This document shows positions 32,953 to 44,727 of a stretch of 64,000 nucleotides of DNA, piece after piece. A program made the translations under genes and the position numbers. The notes beneath the pieces are model-generated. The model searched no databases, was not told where the DNA came from, and saw only the letters and a list, made by a program, of their open reading frames with translations. The stretch's first letter is position 1; each line of letters begins with the position of its first letter. The DNA is from an uncultured Muribaculaceae bacterium (lineage in GTDB: Bacteria > Bacteroidota > Bacteroidia > Bacteroidales > Muribaculaceae): assembly GCA_947381945.1 (NCBI GenBank), contig CANCXM010000002.1:1-64000 (forward strand). Direction: 5' to 3'.

Positions 32953-33501
32953 TCATACTTGTTTTTTAAACCGTGCTACAATTTGGGAAGTGTTCTTCAG
33001 ATGCAGTCTTGCCTTAATATGCTGGATATGATTCCGGACCGTCATGATAGAGATCTGAAGCTCCTCCCCTATCTCAGCCGGACACAAGCCTTCGGAAAGA
33101 AGCTCGGCCACCTCCTGCTCCCTCGCCGAAAGACGAGTCTGAAGGACCGGTTTACATATCACCCCTTCAAAAAGGCATTCTCCACGCATTGGACACCTGA
33201 CATCTTCGAAGTTGAATTCCCCGACACCATTGATGTCGTATGACAATGCATCATATTCACCGAAATTACATCTGATGAACCTATGCACAATCCGGAACTC
33301 GAAGAACTCCCGATTCCTTTCACTCCTGGAGTAAAGTTCGGACAGAGCTGTGAAAGCTCCCGGGTAAAGGTCACGGATTAGTATTAGCATCTCTTCCGTG
33401 ACCTTGCGGCAGCTTTGGTCATAGACAAACATTGGTTTGTCGTATGGCTTCACATTTATGCTCCCATCCGGGCAGTTATAGAATTCCGTCTTTTCAAGCA
33501 T
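32953..33501 (-). CDS. LuxR-type transcriptional regulator
   Basis: 182 residues. The last 65 form a GerE/LuxR helix-turn-helix: LSAREQEVAELLSEGLCPAE, IGEELQISIMTVRNHIQHIK, ARLHLKNTSQIVARF. The N-terminal 110 residues (with VFGEY-like and Cys-containing stretches) match no sensor domain I know. In the phage switch operon it probably activates early or late genes; the TGTAGA cluster at 24137-24362 is a candidate target, an inference from the lack of any other suitable activator in the window. Confidence 0.8.
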   Translation of the reverse strand: MLEKTEFYNCPDGSINVKPYDKPMFVYDQSCRKVTEEMLILIRDLYPGAFTALSELYSRSERNREFFEFRIVHRFIRCNFGEYDALSYDINGVGEFNFEDVRCPMRGECLFEGVICKPVLQTRLSAREQEVAELLSEGLCPAEIGEELQISIMTVRNHIQHIKARLHLKNTSQIVARFKKQV

Positions 33502-33676
33502 CTTTAAACCTATTTATTATGCTCTCAATCGCACGACGTTCAAGAGGCTTAAATGATTCATTTCTTATCTTATAATAGAAAGTCGGTAATGAAAATCCTA
33601 TTTCAGAAATAACCATAGTCCTCAGCTTAGATTTGTCTTCATCCGTAAGATTCCTATAATAGTCAGATATAACCAT
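33494..33676 (-). CDS. Small phage regulator, first gene of the early operon
   Basis: 60 residues (MVISDYYRNLTDEDKSKLRT), helical, with IGFSLPTFYYKIRNESFKPL, the look of small Cro/CII-like DNA-binding proteins of Bacteroidales phages. It is divergent from the repressor at 33809-34168 and overlaps the next gene by 8 nt. Likely the lytic-side partner of the switch. Confidence 0.6.
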   Translation of the reverse strand: MVISDYYRNLTDEDKSKLRTMVISEIGFSLPTFYYKIRNESFKPLERRAIESIINRFKDA

Positions 33677-33682
33677 AAGAGC

Positions 33683-33754
33683 AAAAATTAGTAGTTTTCT
33701 GTTGTTGAGTTTTAAATTAATTATTAATTTTATAACGCAAAGCTACTAATTTTT
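33683..33754. promoter_or_regulatory. Switch region with paired operators
   Basis: AAAAATTAGTAG (33683-33694) and its exact complement (33743-33754) lie 48 bp apart between the divergent repressor and early genes. They are the best candidates for repressor operators. The rest of 33677-33808 is AT-rich. Confidence 0.55.
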
Positions 33755-33808
33755 AATATCAATCTATTAAAAAATCATAGTTAATAAAAATTAAAATAAT
33801 AGATAAAT

Positions 33809-34168
33809 ATGTTTAACAAACAGAAAGTCATAGATTTACTTGAAGAACGCAAAATAAAGCACAAGGAACTTTTAGACTACTTGGGCAAAAATTATAATGG
33901 GTCATTGAAGCAGCTACTTGATGGAGATATAAAAGCAAGTAATCTGGAAAAAATTGCGAATTTCTTTATGATTCCCATAGATTATTTATTTGACCGAGAA
34001 CCAGGGAAAGACAGTATAAATATCACTGGCAACATGAACCATATTCAAGGCTCATTCAATAAATCGCTTGTCTCAGAAAATAAGAGCTTAGAGGCTCTTA
34101 TAGAGGAAAAAGATAAAAGAATAGCCATTCTCGAAGAAATGGTAGACATCTTAAAAAAACAAAAATAA
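33809..34168 (+). CDS. XRE-type prophage repressor
   Basis: 119 residues. The N-terminal 60 form an XRE helix-turn-helix with unusually small loops (KQKVIDLLEERKIKHKELLD, then LKQLLDGDIKASNLEKIANF and IPIDYLFDREPG). A glycine-rich hinge follows (INITGNMNHIQGSFNKSL) and then a C-terminal coiled coil (LIEEKDKRIAILEEMVDILK) for dimerisation. It is the only long plus-strand gene next to the early operon and faces the divergent small regulator, so it is the probable lysogenic repressor. Confidence 0.8.
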   Translation: MFNKQKVIDLLEERKIKHKELLDYLGKNYNGSLKQLLDGDIKASNLEKIANFFMIPIDYLFDREPGKDSINITGNMNHIQGSFNKSLVSENKSLEALIEEKDKRIAILEEMVDILKKQK

Positions 34169-34287
34169 ACAATAGAAAGACAGTGAAATACTTCTACTAA
34201 AATCAGACGAATTTCAGACAAAACTAATAGAAATAAATATTGAAAGAGGTTGCAGAATAACGATTTAATGAGCGGAGATTTAGAAAA

Positions 34288-34318
34288 ATCTCCCTCTCTC
34301 TCCGCCAATAAACCAAGC
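34288..34318 (+). repeat. Attachment-site-like sequence resembling a tRNA-Ser 3' end (copy 1)
   Basis: ATCTCCCTCTCTCTCCGCC, then AATAAA..AAGC. The CTCTCTCCGCC end is what tRNA-Ser genes of Bacteroidales commonly carry, and a hairpin terminator follows directly, but no tRNA body precedes it. It has an imperfect copy at 35765-35795. It lies about 120 nt after the repressor gene, the expected right end of the prophage. Confidence 0.4.
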
Positions 34319-34360
34319 AAAATCGCTGTAACTCACAAGGTTACGGCGATTTTCATTTTA
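34319..34360 (+). terminator. Hairpin terminator after the repressor/att-like site
   Basis: AAAATCGC..GTAAC (34319 onward) pairs with GTTAC..GCGATTTT (to 34353), loop of 7, followed by CATTTTA. Bidirectional in composition. It is the type of terminator that follows tRNA genes. Confidence 0.6.
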
Positions 34361-34450
34361 CCCCATACAAAAATACATACAAATATTGGGTGTGAACCGG
34401 GGCACAAAATCACAAACTTAAATTTTAATGAACAACTAATTTACGAATAA

Positions 34451-34537
34451 ATCAAGCAGTGGCTCGAAATGCCGGAGACGGAGCGCGACTATGCCGTCGG
34501 CGCTCACTATCGAGAACGCCCACCGAAATTTACTTGA
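34451..34537 (+). pseudogene. Fragment related to the phage gene at 19154-20047
   Basis: An open stretch without start codon reads IKQWLEMPETERDYAVGAHY before stopping. It resembles the N-terminal QEWLNTPAPERDIMAGA of the head-region gene at 19154-20047. It is the first of several decayed phage-like frames at 34.4-35.6 kb. Confidence 0.4.
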
Positions 34538-35961: not shown

Positions 35962-38022
35962 TCAGAATGGACGGAGAATTGCAGAATTGATTTTGTTTTC
36001 AGTTTCCACACGGCCTTTTTCCGTCTTCTTTCCGTATGGGAGCATGTATGTGAGGGAAAGGCTGACATTGCGCCCTGTCAGATCGCTGAATGACCGTGAA
36101 TGGGACTGATATACGCCATAATTTGCATCTGTACGCGTACACATCCGTCTGTCAAGGAAATTTTCAAAACGACATTCTGCCGCCCAATTGCCATGCTGCC
36201 AGTTAAGTGAAAGGCCATATTGCGCAGGATTACGCACCTTTACTCCTTCTATACCAAGCACGCTATATGGTAAGGCATAAGTCCCCTTTATCTGCCAATC
36301 CCCGCACATATATGACGCACTGAAATCAGTCCGCCAATCATTGCTTCTTGCAGGCCGGTATTCAGAATCGAAGCGGTTGATGCTGAATGTTGCGTTGCCT
36401 TTCAGCCGGAGCTTGTTGTCAAGGAGATTGGCCGACAGACCGAATATCAGTTTGTTGTAAGAAAAATTACCGTCATTGACAAGCTGATGATACATTATGT
36501 TGCCCTCCGCGAAGTATCTGTTGGAAGTGTTGTCGAAGTATTTCAGGAAATCATAGGTGAACGACAGTCCGAAATGCCCGAAACGGCCATTATAGCTGAC
36601 AAAGTTTTGAAAAGCGTTCAACTGTTCAAGGTCGGGATTTCCCATTGTAGCCTCGAAGAATGACGTCTGTATCACTGCGTCGTTTTTGTATGATGGATTG
36701 TAGATACTGTGGACATAATTACCTGTAACTGAAAGAGAATGTCGCTGATTGATGGCGTATGTCAGACCATAGAATACCTTTGGGGAGACCTGATTGTCGT
36801 TATGGTCTCCAATTGTGGAATATAGGTCGGTTATACCTGCTGAGGCATAATACGACAGACCGAATGGCAGGTTATGGTCGATGTGCAGCATAGCCATCGC
36901 ATGGTTGTTCTTCAACGTCTGCTTGCTTGTGAAACTGCCCGAATAGACATCATGGTAATAGTTGTAGTATTCATCGACAGTCAAGCCGAGGCTGAGTCCA
37001 TTTGAGAAAGATTTGAAATACCCCAAAGTGGCACTTGCCAAGACGTTGTTCTCCTTAGTGTTGTTCTTAATCTCGTCGACATTGGTTTCCAGATAGTTGC
37101 TTCGGTAGTCCGTATGTCCGTGACGTAGGGTTGAGATCGCCATGATTGTATGGCCTCCGGGCAGAAACAGATTATAGTGCATTTTCACTACCGGTGACAG
37201 ACCTCGCTCTTTACTTTTTCGGATGGCCTCCGAAGAGAAATCATATAGCCCCGTGTAAGTGACATTGTCCTGTAAGAAATTCCTTGGGGTGGCGCTTCGT
37301 GTCATGGCCACTGAAATGTCAAATGAATGGTTCCCGGTAGCATGGGCTAATTTGAAGTTGACGTATTGGGAATTTGAACGTGTTTTGCTCCCGACGGGCA
37401 AAATGGCTTGATTCAAAACTCCGTCATTGAGCATGAATACATTCTCCGCACTGTTGAGCTTAGAGCGCTCATCCCATTTACCATTTGCCGTAAGCGTCAG
37501 TGTGAGGGCATCCTTCTTATAGTTGACCATTCCGATATAATTACCGTATTGACGTACCAATCCTTCATCGGCTGAAAGATAGACGTTGCCTCCGTAAACA
37601 TACTGCGCGGTAATGAAATTCATTACTGCCCCGCTACCGACATACTGCCCACCCGGATTGCGTTGGTAATCAATCTGCACAATCTCGGATGCAGAGAGTG
37701 TGGCGAGTTCATCAGGATTAACCTCCACGCCATTGACAAGTATTCTGACATCCCGACCTGCCGCAGTTGAAATGGACTTTGCCGAAGCATTGACATTGAA
37801 ATCCGGCAAGTTCATGTTTTCCAACAGGGTGTAGCCGTTGGTGCTGTGTTTCTTCTCCAATTTTGTAGGCCGGAGTATAACCTTCTTGGCAGTTTCAATC
37901 TGCGCGTCGGCAGTAACCACCACTTCATTGAGATTGTTGGAAATGGAGTCGGTCGAGACTTCTTGTTGTGCGGATGCCATCGAAGGCAATGTCCACAATA
38001 GGACGAACAGTAACTTTTTCAT
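35962..38022 (-). CDS. TonB-receptor-like outer membrane beta-barrel protein
   Basis: 686 residues from MKKLLFVLLWTLPSMASAQQ (38022), a clear signal peptide; the earlier in-frame ATG at 38166 has no signal sequence. A plug-like N-terminal region (NEVVVTADAQIETAKKVILR; RDVRILVNGVEVNPDELATL) is followed by about 500 residues of barrel strands ending in F (NSAILRPF). This is the outer-membrane beta-barrel family that accompanies GLPGLI proteins. It lacks the TonB box and carboxypeptidase-like N-terminal domain. The promoter region holds three 11-bp repeats (38159-38186), so the regulator upstream probably controls it. Confidence 0.8.
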   Translation of the reverse strand: MKKLLFVLLWTLPSMASAQQEVSTDSISNNLNEVVVTADAQIETAKKVILRPTKLEKKHSTNGYTLLENMNLPDFNVNASAKSISTAAGRDVRILVNGVEVNPDELATLSASEIVQIDYQRNPGGQYVGSGAVMNFITAQYVYGGNVYLSADEGLVRQYGNYIGMVNYKKDALTLTLTANGKWDERSKLNSAENVFMLNDGVLNQAILPVGSKTRSNSQYVNFKLAHATGNHSFDISVAMTRSATPRNFLQDNVTYTGLYDFSSEAIRKSKERGLSPVVKMHYNLFLPGGHTIMAISTLRHGHTDYRSNYLETNVDEIKNNTKENNVLASATLGYFKSFSNGLSLGLTVDEYYNYYHDVYSGSFTSKQTLKNNHAMAMLHIDHNLPFGLSYYASAGITDLYSTIGDHNDNQVSPKVFYGLTYAINQRHSLSVTGNYVHSIYNPSYKNDAVIQTSFFEATMGNPDLEQLNAFQNFVSYNGRFGHFGLSFTYDFLKYFDNTSNRYFAEGNIMYHQLVNDGNFSYNKLIFGLSANLLDNKLRLKGNATFSINRFDSEYRPARSNDWRTDFSASYMCGDWQIKGTYALPYSVLGIEGVKVRNPAQYGLSLNWQHGNWAAECRFENFLDRRMCTRTDANYGVYQSHSRSFSDLTGRNVSLSLTYMLPYGKKTEKGRVETENKINSAILRPF

Positions 38023-38158
38023 GCTGATACGATTTTCCTTTAACCTCCGCCACGCAGTAGAGATAACGCGAGAGCCGCTCTCATAGCCCTTAGCAGCCGA
38101 GGAATGTTTTTTTGACTGCAAAGCAAATGAAAAAGTACCGACAAGACCTAAAATTTTG

Positions 38159-38186
38159 TCTGACATTTATCTGACAAAACGCTGAC
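38159..38186 (-). promoter_or_regulatory. Three CTGAC repeats at exactly 11-bp spacing
   Basis: CTGAC begins at 38160, 38171 and 38182 (plus strand), each with near-identical flanks (TCTGAC, TCTGAC, GCTGAC). An imperfect -7 box (TACTTTTT) lies at 38137-38130, about 22 bp downstream. PhoB/OmpR-type winged-helix proteins bind tandem 11-bp half-sites, and such a protein is encoded directly upstream. Confidence 0.65.
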
Positions 38187-38197
38187 AACCCATCGTA

Positions 38198-39064
38198 TCA
38201 GCCACTTACACGGAGCTCATAAGACTCTCCACGGTTACAGATTATCTCGATATCAGTTTCTGCGAGAGCCGTTTTTGTGCGCCTCACCAAGGTATAAAGT
38301 GATTCCTCCGCATTACTCTTATTGTCCCAAAGGGCTGAGCAAAGTGTGGTTTTGTCAACTCTCATATCGGGCGCATCCAGAAGCATCCGGGCAAACCGTC
38401 GCTGCATAGGAGTAAGTTTGACACCGTCAAGAATATGATCGGTGGAATGCAGCGGAGCGTCTGCCATTTCCGGCAGTTCTGTTTCTTGCAAAGCAATGGG
38501 CAGGCCGGTAACTTTTCGTGTCAATAAAAACATGCCCGCCATCGAAAGAATGGAGAGAGCGAAAAGGACACAGGGCAACGTCTGGTCGGAAGCGGCAAAC
38601 ACTGATGCCATCGAACAGTCAGCGAAACCTTGAACCTGTATTGCAACCCCATCGACAGCCCGTTCAGGCACAAGCATTATGGAATCCGAGGCAATTTTAT
38701 TCCCTTGTAGTTTCTGAGCAGTTCTCTTCTCGTTAACCAAGGCAAGAGTGAAATATGCCTGATCTTTCAGAACAGAATTTCTGAAATTCAAATCAGATGC
38801 TTGATAGATGAGCGGTTTGCGGGTGGCTTCATGCATTTTTCTCAATGCCGTGATGGTATCCTGACGGGTCCACAATTCGCTGTTTTCATGAACCAACGCA
38901 ATCATAGCATCGTTCAGGTCATTCGCGATGCTTGTTTTAGCGTTGGAATATGAGAGGCAACTCGACACGACAGATGCTATCATCAAAGCCAAAGGAACCA
39001 ACATTCCGTAACGGAGCATTTTCCCATTCTTATCCGCTATTTTCATAATTCCATTCATATTCAA
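38198..39064 (-). CDS. Membrane-embedded one-component regulator with PhoB-type DNA-binding domain
   Basis: 288 residues. One membrane helix near residues 19-40 (YGMLVPLALMIASVVSSC) and a second near 164-184 (VLFALSILSMAGMFLLTR) bracket a periplasmic domain of about 120 residues. The C-terminal 75 are a winged-helix transcriptional domain of the OmpR/PhoB type (KLTPMQRRFARMLLDAPDMR; VDKTTLCSALWDNKSNAEES; LYTLVRRTKTAL; ICNRGESYELRV). It resembles a sensor kinase with the kinase replaced by a DNA-binding domain, the reverse orientation of ToxR. The receptor gene follows, with 11-bp repeats between them. Confidence 0.75.
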   Translation of the reverse strand: MNMNGIMKIADKNGKMLRYGMLVPLALMIASVVSSCLSYSNAKTSIANDLNDAMIALVHENSELWTRQDTITALRKMHEATRKPLIYQASDLNFRNSVLKDQAYFTLALVNEKRTAQKLQGNKIASDSIMLVPERAVDGVAIQVQGFADCSMASVFAASDQTLPCVLFALSILSMAGMFLLTRKVTGLPIALQETELPEMADAPLHSTDHILDGVKLTPMQRRFARMLLDAPDMRVDKTTLCSALWDNKSNAEESLYTLVRRTKTALAETDIEIICNRGESYELRVSG

Positions 39065-39101: not shown

Positions 39102-39290
39102 TTAAAAATGATAAGTGGCAACTGTGTCACGGGAAATTTCAATATCAGATTGGAAATTGCGTGACGGCACACTCTCATACCTCCCGGTTGTGATCGAAAC
39201 ACTTTTCTTCAGTCCACAGGAACTACACCACAACCATATACAACCGGCTGCAAGTATCAAAGACGATATTTTGAGGCGCTTATTTCGCAT
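39102..39290 (-). CDS. Small lipoprotein
   Basis: 62 residues from MRNKRLKISSLILAAGCIWL (39290); the first in-frame ATG at 39326 lies upstream of the promoter spacing and is not preferred. The end of the signal (WCSSCG) is a lipobox. The mature part is about 35 residues (VSITTGRYESVPSRNFQSDI). It is the last gene behind the repeated promoter element (copy F). Function unknown. Confidence 0.55.
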   Translation of the reverse strand: MRNKRLKISSLILAAGCIWLWCSSCGLKKSVSITTGRYESVPSRNFQSDIEISRDTVATYHF

Positions 39291-39312
39291 ATTTCTTGAA
39301 ACGTAATTTGTA

Positions 39313-39431
39313 CAAATATACCACAAATAAAAATAAAAACTCTCAACAAATGTCGCAAGTCATGGATTTTAACATTGTTTGCTATCATTTTTTCGCAATT
39401 GACTCAGATGTACAGGTCTGATATTGAGAAT
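39313..39431 (-). promoter_or_regulatory. Repeated promoter element, copy F, with 20-codon fragment of the Crp gene end
   Basis: Minus strand order: a remnant reading ILNIRPVHLSQLRKNDSKQC and stop (39431-39369), 9 nt, a half-decayed palindrome CTTGCGACATTTGTTGAGAG (39359-39340), 19 nt, and -7 box TATATTTG (39320-39313). The remnant matches the end of the Crp/Fnr gene at 44050-44625 (FLNITPTHLSRLRKNDKKQC). Drives 39102-39290. Confidence 0.75.
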
Positions 39432-39455
39432 ACCAATATATGAATGTCAGTCGGT

Positions 39456-40304
39456 TCATAAGTCGTGAGAATAGTTGGTTTCCTCTTTGTCGAAGTTGAC
39501 TTCGGATTTTTCATTAGTTGAAGCTGTACCGACACCATACGCTGCCTGAATTTTAGCAGCAAAATTTGAGTGCTGAAACTTCCACCAATTGTTGAAAAAC
39601 TTGTCACGGGTCACTGTGGTGAAGCCCCATTTATCATCATAAGTAAAAATTCCAACTTCTGAACTGGGATTCTGCACAAGGCCGTGGGCTTCAAAGAAAT
39701 AATCATTGTTGGCATCATGAGCTTCAAGAATCAACCCCGGCAGACCACAAAGTTTCCATGGTCCATCCTGAATGGGAATTTCCGGTGCGAACCAAGCTGT
39801 CCATTTTCGCCCACGATAATCAGCAATAGCCTCAACACATTCATAACCCAATATGGTCTTGGTGCTATCCCCAATCGCCCATTCGGGTTTCTCCCAATCT
39901 TCTGAATACTGCCAACGCTCCATATCAAAATAGCAACGTTCGGTAACTTTGCCTTCAGGAATATTCTTATAGATATAGTTCCAATAATAACCACACGCCA
40001 ACTGGGTATCATCGCGCTTGCCACTCATAGTTCGTGCCTGATCCATGGCCCAAAAACTCGCAGGGTCACATACCATTATCGAATCCTGCCATAAGCGTTT
40101 TGTGCCGCAAAAAACAGATTTGTTTTTCCCGATTCTAAGCATTACAGGATCCTTTGCAAAATGAGAAGTCCGTTTTGTTGTATCATTCACCGCAGTGCGC
40201 GTGTAATGCACTTCAAGAATCGCTGGTTCTGCATCCTTGACATAATCTTTTGCAAATGCTGTAGTTGCAGCCAACAAAAGCAGTATAAAAATCAATTGTT
40301 TCAT
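39456..40304 (-). CDS. GLPGLI family protein
   Basis: 282 residues with a signal peptide (MKQLIFILLLLAATTAFAKD). The family signature LCGLPGLILEAHDANNDYFF lies near residue 190, followed by the usual aromatic C-terminal half. GLPGLI proteins are secreted Bacteroidetes proteins of unknown role that are usually found beside an outer membrane beta-barrel protein, here 35962-38022. It is controlled by copy E of the repeated promoter element. Confidence 0.85.
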   Translation of the reverse strand: MKQLIFILLLLAATTAFAKDYVKDAEPAILEVHYTRTAVNDTTKRTSHFAKDPVMLRIGKNKSVFCGTKRLWQDSIMVCDPASFWAMDQARTMSGKRDDTQLACGYYWNYIYKNIPEGKVTERCYFDMERWQYSEDWEKPEWAIGDSTKTILGYECVEAIADYRGRKWTAWFAPEIPIQDGPWKLCGLPGLILEAHDANNDYFFEAHGLVQNPSSEVGIFTYDDKWGFTTVTRDKFFNNWWKFQHSNFAAKIQAAYGVGTASTNEKSEVNFDKEETNYSHDL

Positions 40305-40419
40305 ATCTATTCGTGATAATCGGTTTCAAGGAAATCCATATTCACACCTTCGCCATTGCGTATGTGGCCATGTCCCAAAATGGTCATTTAACAGGGTGAT
40401 ACTTTGTCGTATTATCAAG

Positions 40420-40505
40420 CAAATTTACAACCAATAAAAATAAAAACTCTCAACAAATGTTGAGAGTCAAGGATTTTAACATTGTTTGCCATCATTTTTT
40501 TTGCA
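40420..40505 (-). promoter_or_regulatory. Repeated promoter element, copy E
   Basis: Crp-gene remnant ending CKKNDGKQC and stop (to 40476), 9 nt, palindrome CTCTCAACATTTGTTGAGAG (40466-40447 in minus order), 19 nt, -7 box TAAATTTG (40427-40420). Upstream of the GLPGLI gene. Confidence 0.8.
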
Positions 40506-40517
40506 GGCTACTAATGT

Positions 40518-41990
40518 TTAAGGTATCACTTTCCACCAGTCTTCGGGCATTTCCTCTATCTTGAATTTGCTCCATTTTTCCGATGCTTTATATGCTTCGC
40601 TGCAACCGTAAGGCACATAAAGTGTGCAACCGTCAGGTTTGGGTCCAAGAACATATCCGGCATTGCCGGGAATCTCCCATACAGGTGGCTTTTCTGTAAG
40701 ACTAAAAAGTTTATCGACATAGAAGCTCAACGCGGTAGTTTCCACCGTTTTTAGAGATTCGGGCAGTACAAAACTTTTCAAACGCCCTATCCCCCAGAAG
40801 GCTGCTTGACCAATCTTTTGAAAGTGTGGCAAATCTATATCCTCTGATATATAAGGGAACACTACTTCCTCCAACGAAGCGCACGAATGAAAGGCATGAC
40901 TTCCAATTTCGGTACAGCTTGCTGGAATGTTGATTTTAGTCAATGCAATACAACTATTGAAAGCACTTGTGTTAATATTTTCGATACCCTCAGGAAGCTC
41001 TACCTGCGTAATATACTTGTTAGAAGTGAAAACTCCTGCGGGCACATCATTCGTAAATACAGTTGGCAAATATTCCTTATCTACGTTGCAAATATCACAA
41101 TCACCATACATGCTACTATTCCCGGCAACAAAACCGCTGTGAGATAAGTCGATGGTGTACTCCGGCTTTTCATCATAACCTTGATAACCGTGAGAATTGA
41201 GAATACGATTGAGGTAGTAGCAATCATTAGCATTCATTGCCCCAACAACTGTAATGTTGCGGATTCTACCAAAATTTGATTGATCATGACCAATCATATA
41301 TCCCAGACTTCCGGCATAGGGCAACTCAAAGATTTCGGTTGCGCTGAATTGACGTGGCATCTGCCATATCCCGACTTTCTTTTCATCACCGTTACTGAAA
41401 CGCAATGTCAGACATCTAACCCTTCCCATTCCTGTATTTTCCGGAATATTAAGTCGCAAGGAATATCCGTTATCATATCCGCTGTCATAAAGTTCCAACA
41501 ACCCCACCTCTCCGAACATACCTCCTGTGATACGCGCAATTTCACAAGGAGCATTCGACGTGAAATCTATGTCTAAAACCTTACCTTCTGCCGGGATCTC
41601 AATGCATTCATCGAGTCCATGCGTATTGGCAGTTATTACTTTATGGGATATGATACGTTCAAGACTGTAAGTGTATGTCGAGCCATCCGCAGGAGGATTG
41701 GAAAGAGTGGTACGGCGAACACTCAGTTCATATTCCACTCCTTTCTCATATTCAAATCCGTAAATCGTTCCGAATGGCATAGGTTCCCATCTACCGTCAG
41801 GCGAATATTTCACCAGCATACACTCGATAGGGTGTTTTTCATTGTCATCTCCCCACTGAAATTTAGTATCAGTCACAGCCGATACCCACATCGTAATGAG
41901 TTCAGTCTTGTCTTTCGGTTCGTCATCGCTGCAAGCCGTAACGGTGATTGATAGAATTATACAAAGGATGAACGCTAAAGTCTTATTCAT
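40518..41990 (-). CDS. BspA-type leucine-rich repeat lipoprotein
   Basis: 490 residues with a lipoprotein signal (MNKTLAFILCIILSITVTAC, then SDDEPKD). The C-terminal 200 contain BspA/LRR_5 repeats (ITQVELPEGIENINTSAFNS, IALTKINIPASCTEIGSHAF, HSCASLEEVVFP, GRLKSFVLPESLKTVETTAL). The N-terminal half is beta-rich. BspA repeats on anchored proteins of gut bacteria bind host proteins or other cells. Controlled by copy D of the repeated element. Confidence 0.8.
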   Translation of the reverse strand: MNKTLAFILCIILSITVTACSDDEPKDKTELITMWVSAVTDTKFQWGDDNEKHPIECMLVKYSPDGRWEPMPFGTIYGFEYEKGVEYELSVRRTTLSNPPADGSTYTYSLERIISHKVITANTHGLDECIEIPAEGKVLDIDFTSNAPCEIARITGGMFGEVGLLELYDSGYDNGYSLRLNIPENTGMGRVRCLTLRFSNGDEKKVGIWQMPRQFSATEIFELPYAGSLGYMIGHDQSNFGRIRNITVVGAMNANDCYYLNRILNSHGYQGYDEKPEYTIDLSHSGFVAGNSSMYGDCDICNVDKEYLPTVFTNDVPAGVFTSNKYITQVELPEGIENINTSAFNSCIALTKINIPASCTEIGSHAFHSCASLEEVVFPYISEDIDLPHFQKIGQAAFWGIGRLKSFVLPESLKTVETTALSFYVDKLFSLTEKPPVWEIPGNAGYVLGPKPDGCTLYVPYGCSEAYKASEKWSKFKIEEMPEDWWKVIP

Positions 41991-42035
41991 TAGTTATTAT
42001 TACTTTTTATGGACGATTCGTTAATGAATTTTGGG

Positions 42036-42094
42036 CAAAGTTACAACCAATAAAAATAAAAACTCTCAACATATGTTGAGAGTCAAGGTTTTTA
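42036..42094 (-). promoter_or_regulatory. Repeated promoter element, copy D
   Basis: Stop codon of a Crp-gene remnant (KNDGKQC, stop at 42092-42094), 9 nt, palindrome CTCTCAACATATGTTGAGAG (42063-42082), 19 nt, -7 box TAACTTTG (42043-42036). The remnant continues to about 42118. Confidence 0.8.
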
Positions 42095-42133
42095 ACACTG
42101 TTTGCCGTCATTTTTTGCAATCAATCAAAGAAT

Positions 42134-42580
42134 TTACGCGAGTGGTACAGCATAGCAAATTATCGCTACGGCAATTCCGCAAATTAACCATGGCAACCCT
42201 ACCATGATAAATAACAGCTTAGCCATATTTCTGAATGAATTAAGTGCTTTTCGTGTCGTCAGATCCATGGCTTCATACTCACGGATGGTCTGATTGATGA
42301 AAGGCGCATTCTTTATGTTGCGTATTATCAAGAAAGCGATGCCAAAGCATAAAACAAACATCAAAATGATAGTAAACAAGCGATAACTTGCCAAGGAACC
42401 GTAGATTCGAGCATATAAGAAACCGAAAATCATATAGATAGGCGTGAGGGCAAAACCTAATATGCTTGTCATAATAGGATATTCCTCTTTAATATCGTAG
42501 GGTTGCTTGAAACCAAATTCATGTGCCGCCATACGCAGAAGAATCCATTTATGCACAACGAAATGAAGAACATTATTCAT
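42134..42580 (-). CDS. Small integral membrane protein
   Basis: 148 residues. Three probable membrane helices (MTSILGFALTPIYMIFGFLY; FTIILMFVLCFGIAFLII; LLFIMVGLPWLICGIAVAII), N-terminus without signal peptide. The helix pair is separated by a charged loop (NQTIREYEAMDLTTRKALNS). No family recognised. Controlled by copy C of the repeated element. Confidence 0.6.
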   Translation of the reverse strand: MNNVLHFVVHKWILLRMAAHEFGFKQPYDIKEEYPIMTSILGFALTPIYMIFGFLYARIYGSLASYRLFTIILMFVLCFGIAFLIIRNIKNAPFINQTIREYEAMDLTTRKALNSFRNMAKLLFIMVGLPWLICGIAVAIICYAVPLA

Positions 42581-42620
42581 ATAAAGGAATCTGATTTATT
42601 GTATAGTTATTGTCAATTGG

Positions 42621-42679
42621 CAAAGTTACAGCCAATAAAAATAAAAACTCTCAACAAATGTTGAGAGTCAAGGATTTTA
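42621..42679 (-). promoter_or_regulatory. Repeated promoter element, copy C
   Basis: Remnant reduced to the last codon and stop (TGT TAA, ends 42677), 9 nt, palindrome CTCTCAACAAATGTTGAGAG (42648-42667), 19 nt, -7 box TAACTTTG (42628-42621). It begins about 20 nt after the preceding gene's stop. Confidence 0.8.
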
Positions 42680-42700
42680 ACACTGATTGTTGTTATTTTC

Positions 42701-43477
42701 TTATTGTTGAAGGCTGCATGTTATTTTACAGCCATTACTTTTATCGGTCAGTGTCATTTCAATCCTCCTCACGGGTTGGGATATGGATTTGGAGGATAAG
42801 ATATTCTTTTCCCAACCAAAATCAAAAATGTGGTCAAACATAGCCATATACTCGCCATCGCCCCCCAAAATGTATTCATAATCATACAATTTTGAATCCT
42901 CTCCGTAAGAGTGATGCAGCGAATAATCCATTACAAAATTATTTGCATCACTGTGAGTGATATTGAAATGACCCTCGGCTATTGTTTCAACCTTAAATGT
43001 CATAGGCCGACTGCACTCTATTTTTACAGGTTTTGTATTATCATCATTGCGAATGAATTTGATAGTGACTCCTACTGCAAAGAACATATTTTTATTAGTT
43101 CCTTCAATCTTGTCAATTACGAAAGGCAAATAGAAATCTTCAACAGTAAAATGTAGAGTGACAGTGGCTTCCGCTTTTACGTCCTTAATGGTCAAATACG
43201 ACTCTCCAACTTTAGCCGGTTGTACATAAAGCCGATTGTTTGTTTCCACGTCAATACCGAATTTCCCCAAAACTTCAGGGTTGCTTGCGGTCAACTCATA
43301 AACTCCACCACCGTCAGTAAATGGAATTATTGCACCTTTTCCAAACATTACTTTATAATCCCTCTTTCCAAAGGTGATGGGAGTAATGGCATCCGTATCT
43401 TTCGGTTCGTCATTATCACTACATGCTGTCATGAATAAGCATGTAAGTAAAAATAATATGATTGTATTTCTATTCAT
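42701..43477 (-). CDS. Lipoprotein of unknown function
   Basis: 258 residues with lipobox (MNRNTIILFLLTCLFMTAC, then SDNDEPKD). Same N-terminal pattern as the BspA-type lipoprotein. The mature part is beta-rich with Ig-like spacing (GKGAIIPFTDGGGVYELTAS; SYLTIKDVKAEATVTLHFTV). Preceded by fragment B of the Crp gene but by no palindrome, so it may be read through from 43629-43967 or have its own promoter. Confidence 0.65.
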   Translation of the reverse strand: MNRNTIILFLLTCLFMTACSDNDEPKDTDAITPITFGKRDYKVMFGKGAIIPFTDGGGVYELTASNPEVLGKFGIDVETNNRLYVQPAKVGESYLTIKDVKAEATVTLHFTVEDFYLPFVIDKIEGTNKNMFFAVGVTIKFIRNDDNTKPVKIECSRPMTFKVETIAEGHFNITHSDANNFVMDYSLHHSYGEDSKLYDYEYILGGDGEYMAMFDHIFDFGWEKNILSSKSISQPVRRIEMTLTDKSNGCKITCSLQQ

Positions 43478-43508
43478 TATTGCGTGATTGAATGATATAT
43501 ATGTATGA

Positions 43509-43535
43509 ATGTGTAGGCGTGATGTTGAGGAATGG
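43509..43535 (-). repeat. Fragment B of the Crp gene, palindrome absent
   Basis: Reads FLNITPTH in the minus direction, exactly as in the Crp/Fnr gene (SFLNITPTHLSRL), then loses similarity. It sits between two genes of the array, where the other intervals have the complete element; the palindrome and -7 box are missing here. Confidence 0.6.
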
Positions 43536-43628
43536 AAATCAATCTTTTAACGAAATAGATATGATAAAGATGCAAAGAATTGCCATTAGTATAATTCAGC
43601 ATTTCTTATGGAGAGATGCAGAATCAAA

Positions 43629-43967
43629 TTATCGGTTCATTCGGCTCTGTATGTCAATACTGACAGGTTCACCATTAACAGTAAATGAAAGTGTGCAGCC
43701 GGAAAATTCAGTGAGTTTCTTGAACTCAAGTATGAATGTATTGCCGTTGCTTCCTTTGACATCCACTTTCTTCACATCATAAACTTTTCCATTATTGCAA
43801 AGTTTCCAATCTTTTATCACAGTTGTCTGTGACAGGTCTGAAGATTGGAACTCAATTTTGACAGTGGTTTTGCCATGTCGGTTGCTTAACCCTTTGAATT
43901 GGGGCGTAGCTAGCGCACTGCCAAATGAAAGCAGAGCGACTGTAAGTGAGAGAATCAGTTTCTTCAT
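43629..43967 (-). CDS. Small secreted protein
   Basis: 112 residues from MKKLILSLTVALLSFGSALA (43967), a typical signal peptide; an earlier ATG at 44030 would place the promoter element inside the gene. The mature part is a small beta protein (KTTVKIEFQSSDLSQTTVIK; NTFILEFKKLTEFSGCTLSF). It is the gene nearest the regulator, behind copy A of the element. Function unknown. Confidence 0.65.
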   Translation of the reverse strand: MKKLILSLTVALLSFGSALATPQFKGLSNRHGKTTVKIEFQSSDLSQTTVIKDWKLCNNGKVYDVKKVDVKGSNGNTFILEFKKLTEFSGCTLSFTVNGEPVSIDIQSRMNR

Positions 43968-43993
43968 AAACTTTAACGGATTTGTATTTGCCG

Positions 43994-44052
43994 CAAAGAT
44001 AGACAAGAAATTTAACTTGACTCTCAACAAATGTTGAGAGTCAAGGTTTTTA
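43994..44052 (-). promoter_or_regulatory. Repeated promoter element, copy A, at the end of the intact regulator gene
   Basis: Stop codon of the Crp/Fnr gene (44050-44052), 9 nt, palindrome CTCTCAACAAATGTTGAGAG (44021-44040; extended to 28 bp by TTGA/TCAA), 19 nt, -7 box TATCTTTG (44001-43994). The palindrome centre lies about 30 bp upstream of the -7 box, the position of class II Crp/Fnr activator sites. This copy is the likely source of the others. Confidence 0.85.
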
Positions 44053-44625
44053 ACACTGTTTTTTGTCGTTTTTTCGCAGTCGGCTCAGATGGGTAGGTGT
44101 GATGTTGAGGAATGAAGCGATGTCTTTGAGAGAAAAGAGGTCAAAAAGATTTGGGTGGTATTTGACAAGTTCATCGTAACGCTGCTGAGGTGATTTAATA
44201 TATAAATCTACATAACGGTCATAGACAGTCGTATAAACAGCTTCAGTCGAATGCATCACAATATCTTTAAAGCCAGAATCGGCGTCAATCATCTCATTGA
44301 CATCCTTGGTTGGGATGCAGTAAATCTCACAGTCCGATACTGCCACTATCGCCAGTTTAGCTCTTTGTCCGTATATGCAAAATGGCCAGTCAGCAACAAA
44401 TCCTTCGTCAAACACCAATCCCATCACATGCTCCGTACCATCAGTGGAACGTGCCACATATTTAAGCGTCCCGGAAACGATATATCCGATATAACGTCCC
44501 ACCTCGCCGATTGAAACGAATTCCTCCCCTTTGGCAAAACGCCGCAAAGAGCCCCTACTGACACACAGCTCTCACCAGGTATCGAAATCAATCTCTTCGA
44601 TATATGTATTGAAATTCTCTATCAT
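44050..44625 (-). pseudogene. Crp/Fnr-family regulator with in-frame TGA at codon 18
   Basis: The full frame from ATG at 44625 would give 191 residues: MIENFNTYIEEIDFDTW, TGA (44572-44574), then ELCVSRGSLRRFAKGEEFVS and a normal cyclic-nucleotide-like domain with a C-terminal HTH (SLKDIASFLNITPTHLSRLR). Codons on both sides fit the family, so the stop is a nonsense change (CGA to TGA would restore W-R-E). Translation could restart at TTG 44547 (165 residues), keeping most of the protein. Its 3' end is the parent of the repeated elements. Promoter at 44700-44727. Confidence 0.75.
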
Positions 44626-44699
44626 ATTATGTTGACGCTGCAAAAAACAGATATTCTTATTGCTCTACCTCTTTACGACAATCCATAGGCTGTCAAAAG

Positions 44700-44727
44700 C
44701 AAAATTAGCATTTATTTCCCGAAATAA
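44700..44727 (-). promoter_or_regulatory. Promoter of the Crp/Fnr gene with palindromic operator
   Basis: -7 box TAATTTTG (44707-44700) lies just downstream of TTATTTC-CC-GAAATAA (44712-44727), a 7-bp-arm palindrome occupying the region where the spacer would be. There is no good -33. Suggests autoregulation or control by another factor. Confidence 0.5.

Follow-up and report, generated by a model that had tools for sequence, protein, structure and literature searches.

How do newly gained genes come under control in bacteria? This open question is raised by an array of surface-protein genes in an uncultured Muribaculaceae bacterium, found within the window, which is the whole stretch of 64,000 nucleotides (nt) analysed here (contig CANCXM010000002.1, positions 1 to 64,000). 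On its minus strand, from 44625 down to 39102, a Crp/Fnr-type regulator gene is followed by six genes, the shortest of 62 and the longest of 490 codons, and a short element occurs five times. The order within each unit is the same: the last codons of the regulator, a palindrome, 19 nt, a TAnnTTTG box and the next gene. The original prediction read this as repeated gene insertion at a single site, with the 3' end and promoter of the regulator duplicated every time. After comparing genomes across the family, we favor another reading and find it reasonably likely that the element copies are both switches read by the regulator and seams for gene exchange by homologous recombination.

The parent copy sits at the regulator gene's own end (44050..44625, minus strand), as had been proposed: its palindrome CTCTCAACATTTGTTGAGAG (44021..44040) lies 9 nt past the regulator stop, and its -7 box TATCTTTG (43994..44001) lies 19 nt past the palindrome. 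Four daughter copies follow on the same strand. Copy 2 (42621..42699) comprises a regulator relic, a palindrome at 42648-42667 and a box at 42621-42628. Copies 3 (42036..42116, palindrome 42063-42082, box 42036-42043) and 4 (40420..40500, palindrome 40447-40466, box 40420-40427) each hold a relic of about 8 codons, and copy 5 (39313..39430, palindrome 39340-39359, box 39313-39320) one of about 20 codons. Repeat comparison in the window grouped all five into one 82-nt repeat family (39312-39393, 40419-40500, 42035-42116, 42620-42701, and 43993-44074, minus strand), with 72-94% identity to the reference copy. The five had been described as identical in geometry. This holds for the box and for the spacing from palindrome to TAnnTTTG, which is exactly 19 nt in 5/5 copies, and fails for the palindrome, which is perfect over 20 base pairs (bp) in four copies and degraded in the one ending at 39313 (CTTGCGACATTTGTTGAGAG, 3 mismatches). 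The spacer starts with TTTTTATTTTTATT in the four daughter copies and differs in the parent copy.

Relics of unequal length precede all four daughter elements, with relic scores of 44-64. Another relic of the regulator 3' end, fragment B (43509..43555, minus strand), lies between the first gene of the array and the second and has no palindrome; both the variable lengths and this fragment had been noted before and were seen again in the repeat comparison. In the 3.15-Mb genome of the window (G000), every element match with E < 0.1 falls inside the array, and the two matches found elsewhere span 15-16 nt (E 0.18 and 0.63). The combined pattern (the core, then any 22 bases, then TAnnTTTG; at most one mismatch) gave four sites in this genome, all of them in the array.

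We searched 397 genomes of the family, one per species, for the same pattern. It was present in 77 of them, distributed over 13 of 30 genera, and the reversed pattern used as a control gave one match in the 397 genomes. An exact scan for the palindrome plus TTTTTATT, in one named genome per species, retrieved 11 stretches labelled as Muribaculaceae or Muribaculum (6), Bacteroidales (2), Porphyromonadaceae, Clostridiales and Staphylococcus (one each); the Clostridiales and Staphylococcus ones are probably mislabelled metagenome-assembled genomes. Behind the regulator-adjacent elements (45 among 70 listed), the next gene belonged to a family of about 695 residues in 17 cases, to a TonB-plug and carboxypeptidase-regulatory-like family in 5, and to GLPGLI in 2. 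The members of the ~695-residue family that were tested had no Pfam match. Several genomes carried elements, with or without regulator stumps, scattered over multiple contigs. A unit of regulator, predicted operator, 19 nt, TAnnTTTG and target gene is common in the family.

Is the palindrome the operator of this regulator? We took 71 regulator copies from 80 stretches of family genomes, and in 43 of them the core TCAACAWWTGTTGA (at most 2 mismatches) lay no more than 230 nt behind the stop. In this group, an exact TAnnTTTG was found at a spacing of 19 in 28 copies, of 18 in two and of 20 in one, and at no other spacing between 5 and 45, the range scanned. For a co-change table, more loci were included and 50 of 76 regulators were usable (26 were dropped, lacking an operator that could be scored or a helix that could be aligned). 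Tyr in the helix ITPT[H/Y]LSR pairs with TCAACTTWGTTTGA (5/6 Tyr copies vs. 0/44 others) and Gln in ITQTHLSR pairs with A at operator position 18 (7/7 vs. 2/43), counts that are not independent because the rows are related. A quick tree (support from the Shimodaira-Hasegawa-like approximate likelihood-ratio test only) placed the Tyr copies with variant operators at separate positions, with L068, a His copy that has a standard core at spacing 18, as the sister of one Tyr pair. Since the palindrome stands directly behind the regulator gene in many relatives and co-changes with the recognition helix, it is very probably the operator of the Crp/Fnr-type regulator; footprinting and helix co-change across relatives agree with the original assignment. 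We infer that the regulator binds it and activates from near -41 (class II), and the constant 19-nt gap to the -7 box fits a site near -41.5.

In the regulator gene of the window, codon 18 is an in-frame TGA, and the frame is open from 44547, which leaves a part of 165 amino acids (aa) with a cyclic-nucleotide-binding-type domain (cNMP_binding, PF00027, 47.5 bits vs. cut-off 27.5). Pfam reported no helix-turn-helix family for this part. We modelled a full-length intact relative with AlphaFold from an 8-sequence alignment (predicted local distance difference test score of 79.1), and Foldseek matched it over nearly its full length to GlxR, CRP, and FNR structures (best E 3.0e-10). In this model, the relative has a Crp/Fnr fold with a C-terminal helix-turn-helix.

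The regulator relics are also present well outside the window's genome, as the reading of the window had implied. We collected 106 distinct elements, counting once those identical over ~120 nt and leaving out the variant-operator elements L069, L079, L190, and L198. Of these, 45 lay behind a near-full-length regulator, 6 behind a truncated one (one of them, L275, cut by the contig end) and 55 behind neither. Near-full-length meant that the match started no later than residue 45 of the query and ran past residue 165; the set includes the window copy with its stop, the paralogues L065, L279, and L305, and the contig-end-cut L291 and L292. Among the 61 elements without a near-full-length regulator, 22 scored above 35 against regulator 3' ends, compared with 9 of 495 control stretches, eight of which lie directly behind regulators, the ninth (L074) being a degenerate element found by profile. 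The cut-off of 35 was set after the scores were known, and the controls were kept at least 1500 nt from elements but not from regulators; a first set of 300 controls was contaminated by regions behind regulators, and the exceptions were then listed singly. The putative stumps range from ~1 to ~45 codons, with stumps of ~40-45 codons in G182 (two, with a common left flank) and G196, and the one in G206 derives from another Crp/Fnr paralogue. Such stumps recur before elements across the family, though many elements lack one. Separately, two G182 loci (L289 and L290) have ~310 nt in common, including the same stump and element (88.6% identity), with different genes behind, as if the unit had been copied after its truncation.

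The genes themselves, all on the minus strand, are unlike each other. Slot 1 encodes a small secreted protein (112 aa, family F16, 43629..43967). It is followed by a lipoprotein-like protein (258 aa, F15, 42701..43477) without a Pfam match and with relatives in G150 and G228; this is the one gene without an element of its own, because only the palindrome-less fragment B separates it from slot 1. Slot 2 encodes a membrane protein (148 aa, F3, 42134..42580), slot 3 a lipoprotein with DUF4377 and BspA-type leucine-rich repeats in Pfam (490 aa, F28, 40518..41990; relative in G228), slot 4 a GLPGLI family protein (282 aa, F2, 39456..40304; TIGR01200, 166.8 bits vs. cut-off 50), and slot 5 a small lipoprotein (62 aa, F29, 39102..39290). 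Four of the six proteins had no family match above its cut-off in Pfam or NCBIfam. The guanine plus cytosine (GC) content of the array is 36-42%, that of the right flank 45-51% and that of the left side (35.5-38.5 kb) 44-47%. Plain tandem duplication was rejected, since the slot proteins belong to different sequence families. Phage or plasmid cargo was also rejected: positions 39300-44700 had no match in phage and plasmid collections, and the exact palindrome was absent from the viral contigs searched.

In relatives, the order of these genes is not constant and the same families occur in new combinations, in keeping with the original prediction. F3 is first behind elements in G150 and G216 and second behind the G013 element. 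F16 has a relative behind an element in G178, and the small lipoprotein F29 comes first behind an element in G013 and G266, with a further relative at L190 of G062. The GLPGLI gene is first behind a full-length regulator in G216, and a DUF4377 lipoprotein stands behind one in G016.

Probable traces of recombination are found at the elements. The block of element, F3 and element is 79% identical between G000 and G150 over 663 bp, the genes on both sides differ, and the homology ends in or at the elements. Despite the different next gene, a tail-like stump stands 10-17 nt past the F3 stop in both genomes. Within genomes, 11 of 13 element pairs lose homology between +37 and +55, counted from the first base of the operator, with the end of the -7 box at +44. 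The other two are a pair in G182, where homology extends to +177, and one in G266 that stands before paralogous genes. G135 carries two complete tandem modules, and its two regulators agree in 179/180 columns over the tail into the element and in 31/60 in the middle. Three comparisons between different genera gave a higher DNA identity for the slot gene than for recA: GLPGLI between G000 and G216 (82.7 vs. 75.0), F16 between G000 and G178 (81.8 vs. 76.6), and F3 between G000 and G150 (81.8 vs. 79.1). The window regulator is as close to that of G216, from another genus (77.7%, recA 75.0%), as to that of the congener G013 (77.3%, recA 85.4%). As a side observation, an F3 gene in G020 (L204:4798-5371) lies behind a ~30-codon stump of a third Crp/Fnr type (ISRRQLERIN); it adjoins other families of the same cassette pool and lacks the array's operator.

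We propose that modules of regulator, operator, and target would move between genomes by lateral transfer and cross over in the shared operator-promoter element. Since a single regulator would suffice for all copies in trans, spare regulator genes would then disappear from their 5' side, with the promoter retained. The outcome would be a row of cassettes, each bounded by a promoter (element, gene, stump), and no dedicated recombinase would be needed. Such module recombination would account for the graded stumps, the element-bounded blocks, and the lack of a tyrosine-recombinase gene nearby: the PF00589 search (E up to 1e-5) found none on the array contigs of G000, G150, G206, G135, G178, and G216, some of them short, and in G013, the nearest PF00589 gene is ~398 kb from the array. 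More tentatively, and with somewhat less than even confidence, we consider an integrase-free cassette system, in which regulator tail, operator, and promoter would form the seam, an incoming gene would instantly come under the activator, stumps would multiply the regulon, and several Crp/Fnr types would draw on one surface-gene pool.

Several observations weigh against this reading of the elements as switches and seams. Elements of ~80 bp are short for homologous recombination. The recombinase search covered tyrosine recombinases only, not other recombinases or transposases. Of the 71 regulator copies, 28 had no standard core within 230 nt, some with a variant operator and others with no operator visible, and one Tyr copy (L279) retains the standard core. 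Two of three G150 stumps are at or under the relic cut-off (29 and 35), including the one behind F3, which scores 29 though it is plain in the alignment. Other slot-gene comparisons do not exceed recA: F3 between G000 and G013 (84.3 vs. 85.4) and between G000 and G216 (66.2 vs. 75.0), F15 between G000 and G150 (72.3 vs. 79.1), and F28 between G000 and G228 (69.0 vs. 75.1). F3 relatives in G002, G020, and G080 lack the array's element, and neither F15 nor F3 was seen directly behind a full-length regulator in the loci fetched. With one genome per species, turnover at the strain level is not visible.

Two further points on the same side concern the regulator. Wide occurrence of the element with no link to the regulator gene had been named as grounds for giving up the original prediction, and here the evidence divides: of the 61 elements without a near-full-length regulator, 22 carry a recognisable relic and 39 do not. 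Moreover, the sole regulator copy found in the window's genome is the one with the in-frame stop at codon 18 (no second copy at E 1e-20), so its present activity there is uncertain. Intact copies are present in relatives; the stop in the window's genome may be a fault of assembly, or else the array there may go unregulated.

Among the alternatives, the single-site model, in which genes enter repeatedly behind the regulator in the manner of a site-specific element, survives best, although we now regard it as unlikely. Besides the relics at all four daughter elements of the window, two of which start at the same codon, it draws support from G150, where the copies behind F12, F3, and F7 each follow a tail-like stretch (the two low scores just given are among them) and where regulator tail, insert, and element recur together in a 238-nt copy with 97% identity to the parent. 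However, a single site would predict uniform stumps, and the observed lengths run from ~1 to ~45 codons; no PF00589 gene lies near the arrays, other recombinase types not having been searched; and in other genomes stump-bearing elements are also dispersed on other contigs. This part of the original prediction finds no support in the form proposed. We prefer module recombination because of the G135 tandem modules, the longest stumps (G182 and G196), and the homology that ends around the -7 box.

Ordinary regulon growth, in which operators arose or were copied singly and vertical descent with gene loss did the rest, without special exchange at the elements, seems to us quite improbable. The many elements without a relic would suit it, as would the several cassette pairs that are as diverged as recA or more. 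It is at odds with the three cross-genus comparisons that exceed recA, with the element-bounded blocks with different neighbours and the homogenised regulator tails, and with a window regulator as near to another genus as to a congener. Least credible is that the palindrome is mainly an insulating terminator, with promoter and terminator copied as a spacer and an incidental link to the regulator: three daughter hairpins with a T-rich tail and the parent hairpin do meet the terminator consensus on the minus strand (10 terminator-like sites in the region vs. 4.3 expected), and TTTTTATTTTTATT follows the palindrome in many copies of the window's subclade, but the operator bases co-change with the recognition helix, and the T-tract of the window spacer is not kept across the family whereas palindrome, 19-nt spacing, and box are, so the palindrome is more than a terminator and may serve as both.

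How does module recombination at such elements compare with known systems? Integrons line up unrelated genes in a single orientation and mark off each cassette by a common short element; they have attC sites behind the cassettes and an integrase gene with an adjacent recombination site. The window shares the unrelated genes, the single orientation, and the short boundary element; unlike integrons, most of its units have their own promoter, the element boundaries vary, and its array contig has no PF00589 integrase match. At the mga/emm locus of group A Streptococcus, a regulator is followed by a variable row of mutually related surface-protein genes under its control. The window also has a regulator and then a row of surface-protein genes, but their families are unrelated and their promoters carry the regulator 3' end.

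The layout is also like that of rAID arrays, which are described as co-oriented low-GC genes (<41%) of ~100-300 codons, with conserved intergenic motifs, a tyrosine recombinase beside them as a defining feature, and predicted orphan immunity proteins (PMC12247911). The window array is likewise co-oriented, with conserved intergenic motifs, and low in GC overall. Three of the six slot genes fall below the GC limit (37.2-40.4%, the other three 42.3-42.9%), and four are within 100-300 codons, the remaining two having 62 and 490. Unlike the arrays so described, no tyrosine recombinase was found near that of the window, between its genes stands a Crp/Fnr-type operator-promoter that brings along the tail of the regulator, and its proteins are of surface or GLPGLI types with no PADLOC match. 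Pfam and NCBIfam showed no immunity domain among them, four of the six matching no family above its cut-off. Known defence genes were rejected on the same PADLOC result for the array. The Crp regulon of Bacteroides BT4338 has a palindromic motif defined by comparative genomics (wwwTATGTTnTAnAACATAwww) and is assigned to sugar catabolism (PMC3878776). A Crp-family regulator with a palindromic motif is common to both, while the array has the motif TCAACAWWTGTTGA, surface genes, and elements often adjoining the regulator.

A literature search found no description of the core motif or of the array. The parts are of known kinds; a regulator's own tail with its operator-promoter as the boundary of a cassette is not known from the literature found. 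If the seam is the operator-promoter, acquisition and regulation would be one event, and the stumps would leave a trail of a local regulator growing into a regulon. The pattern allows such arrays to be found and put to the test, and the host family is common in the mouse gut.

Finally, some minor observations are given for the regulator and the surroundings of the array. A hairpin-bearing insert of ~90 nt lies in the regulator 3' end at L072:8100-8189, right after the HLSRLR codons, and similar ones are present at L065, L069, L075, L083, L155, and L190. The regulator reading frame terminates within the insert. Identity is 84-89% in the near-full-length matches, although the regulators themselves diverge more. 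Matches were mostly at regulator tails or elements, with three weak ones elsewhere, and the common start codon of the two window stumps coincides with the insertion point. A known structured RNA was rejected, with no Rfam match up to E 1.

We also used the flanking sequences to look for an empty site: congeners that have the gene on the right carry it elsewhere, and the left flank was partly matched in three. Beside the array, positions 35962-39058 encode a 734-aa protein ~23% identical to the commonest target family of the regulator, as well as a membrane-type protein whose Trans_reg_C match is weak and below the cut-off. A second AT-rich dip at 33000-34500, where GC falls to 31.6%, holds an open reading frame of 119 aa without a Pfam match.

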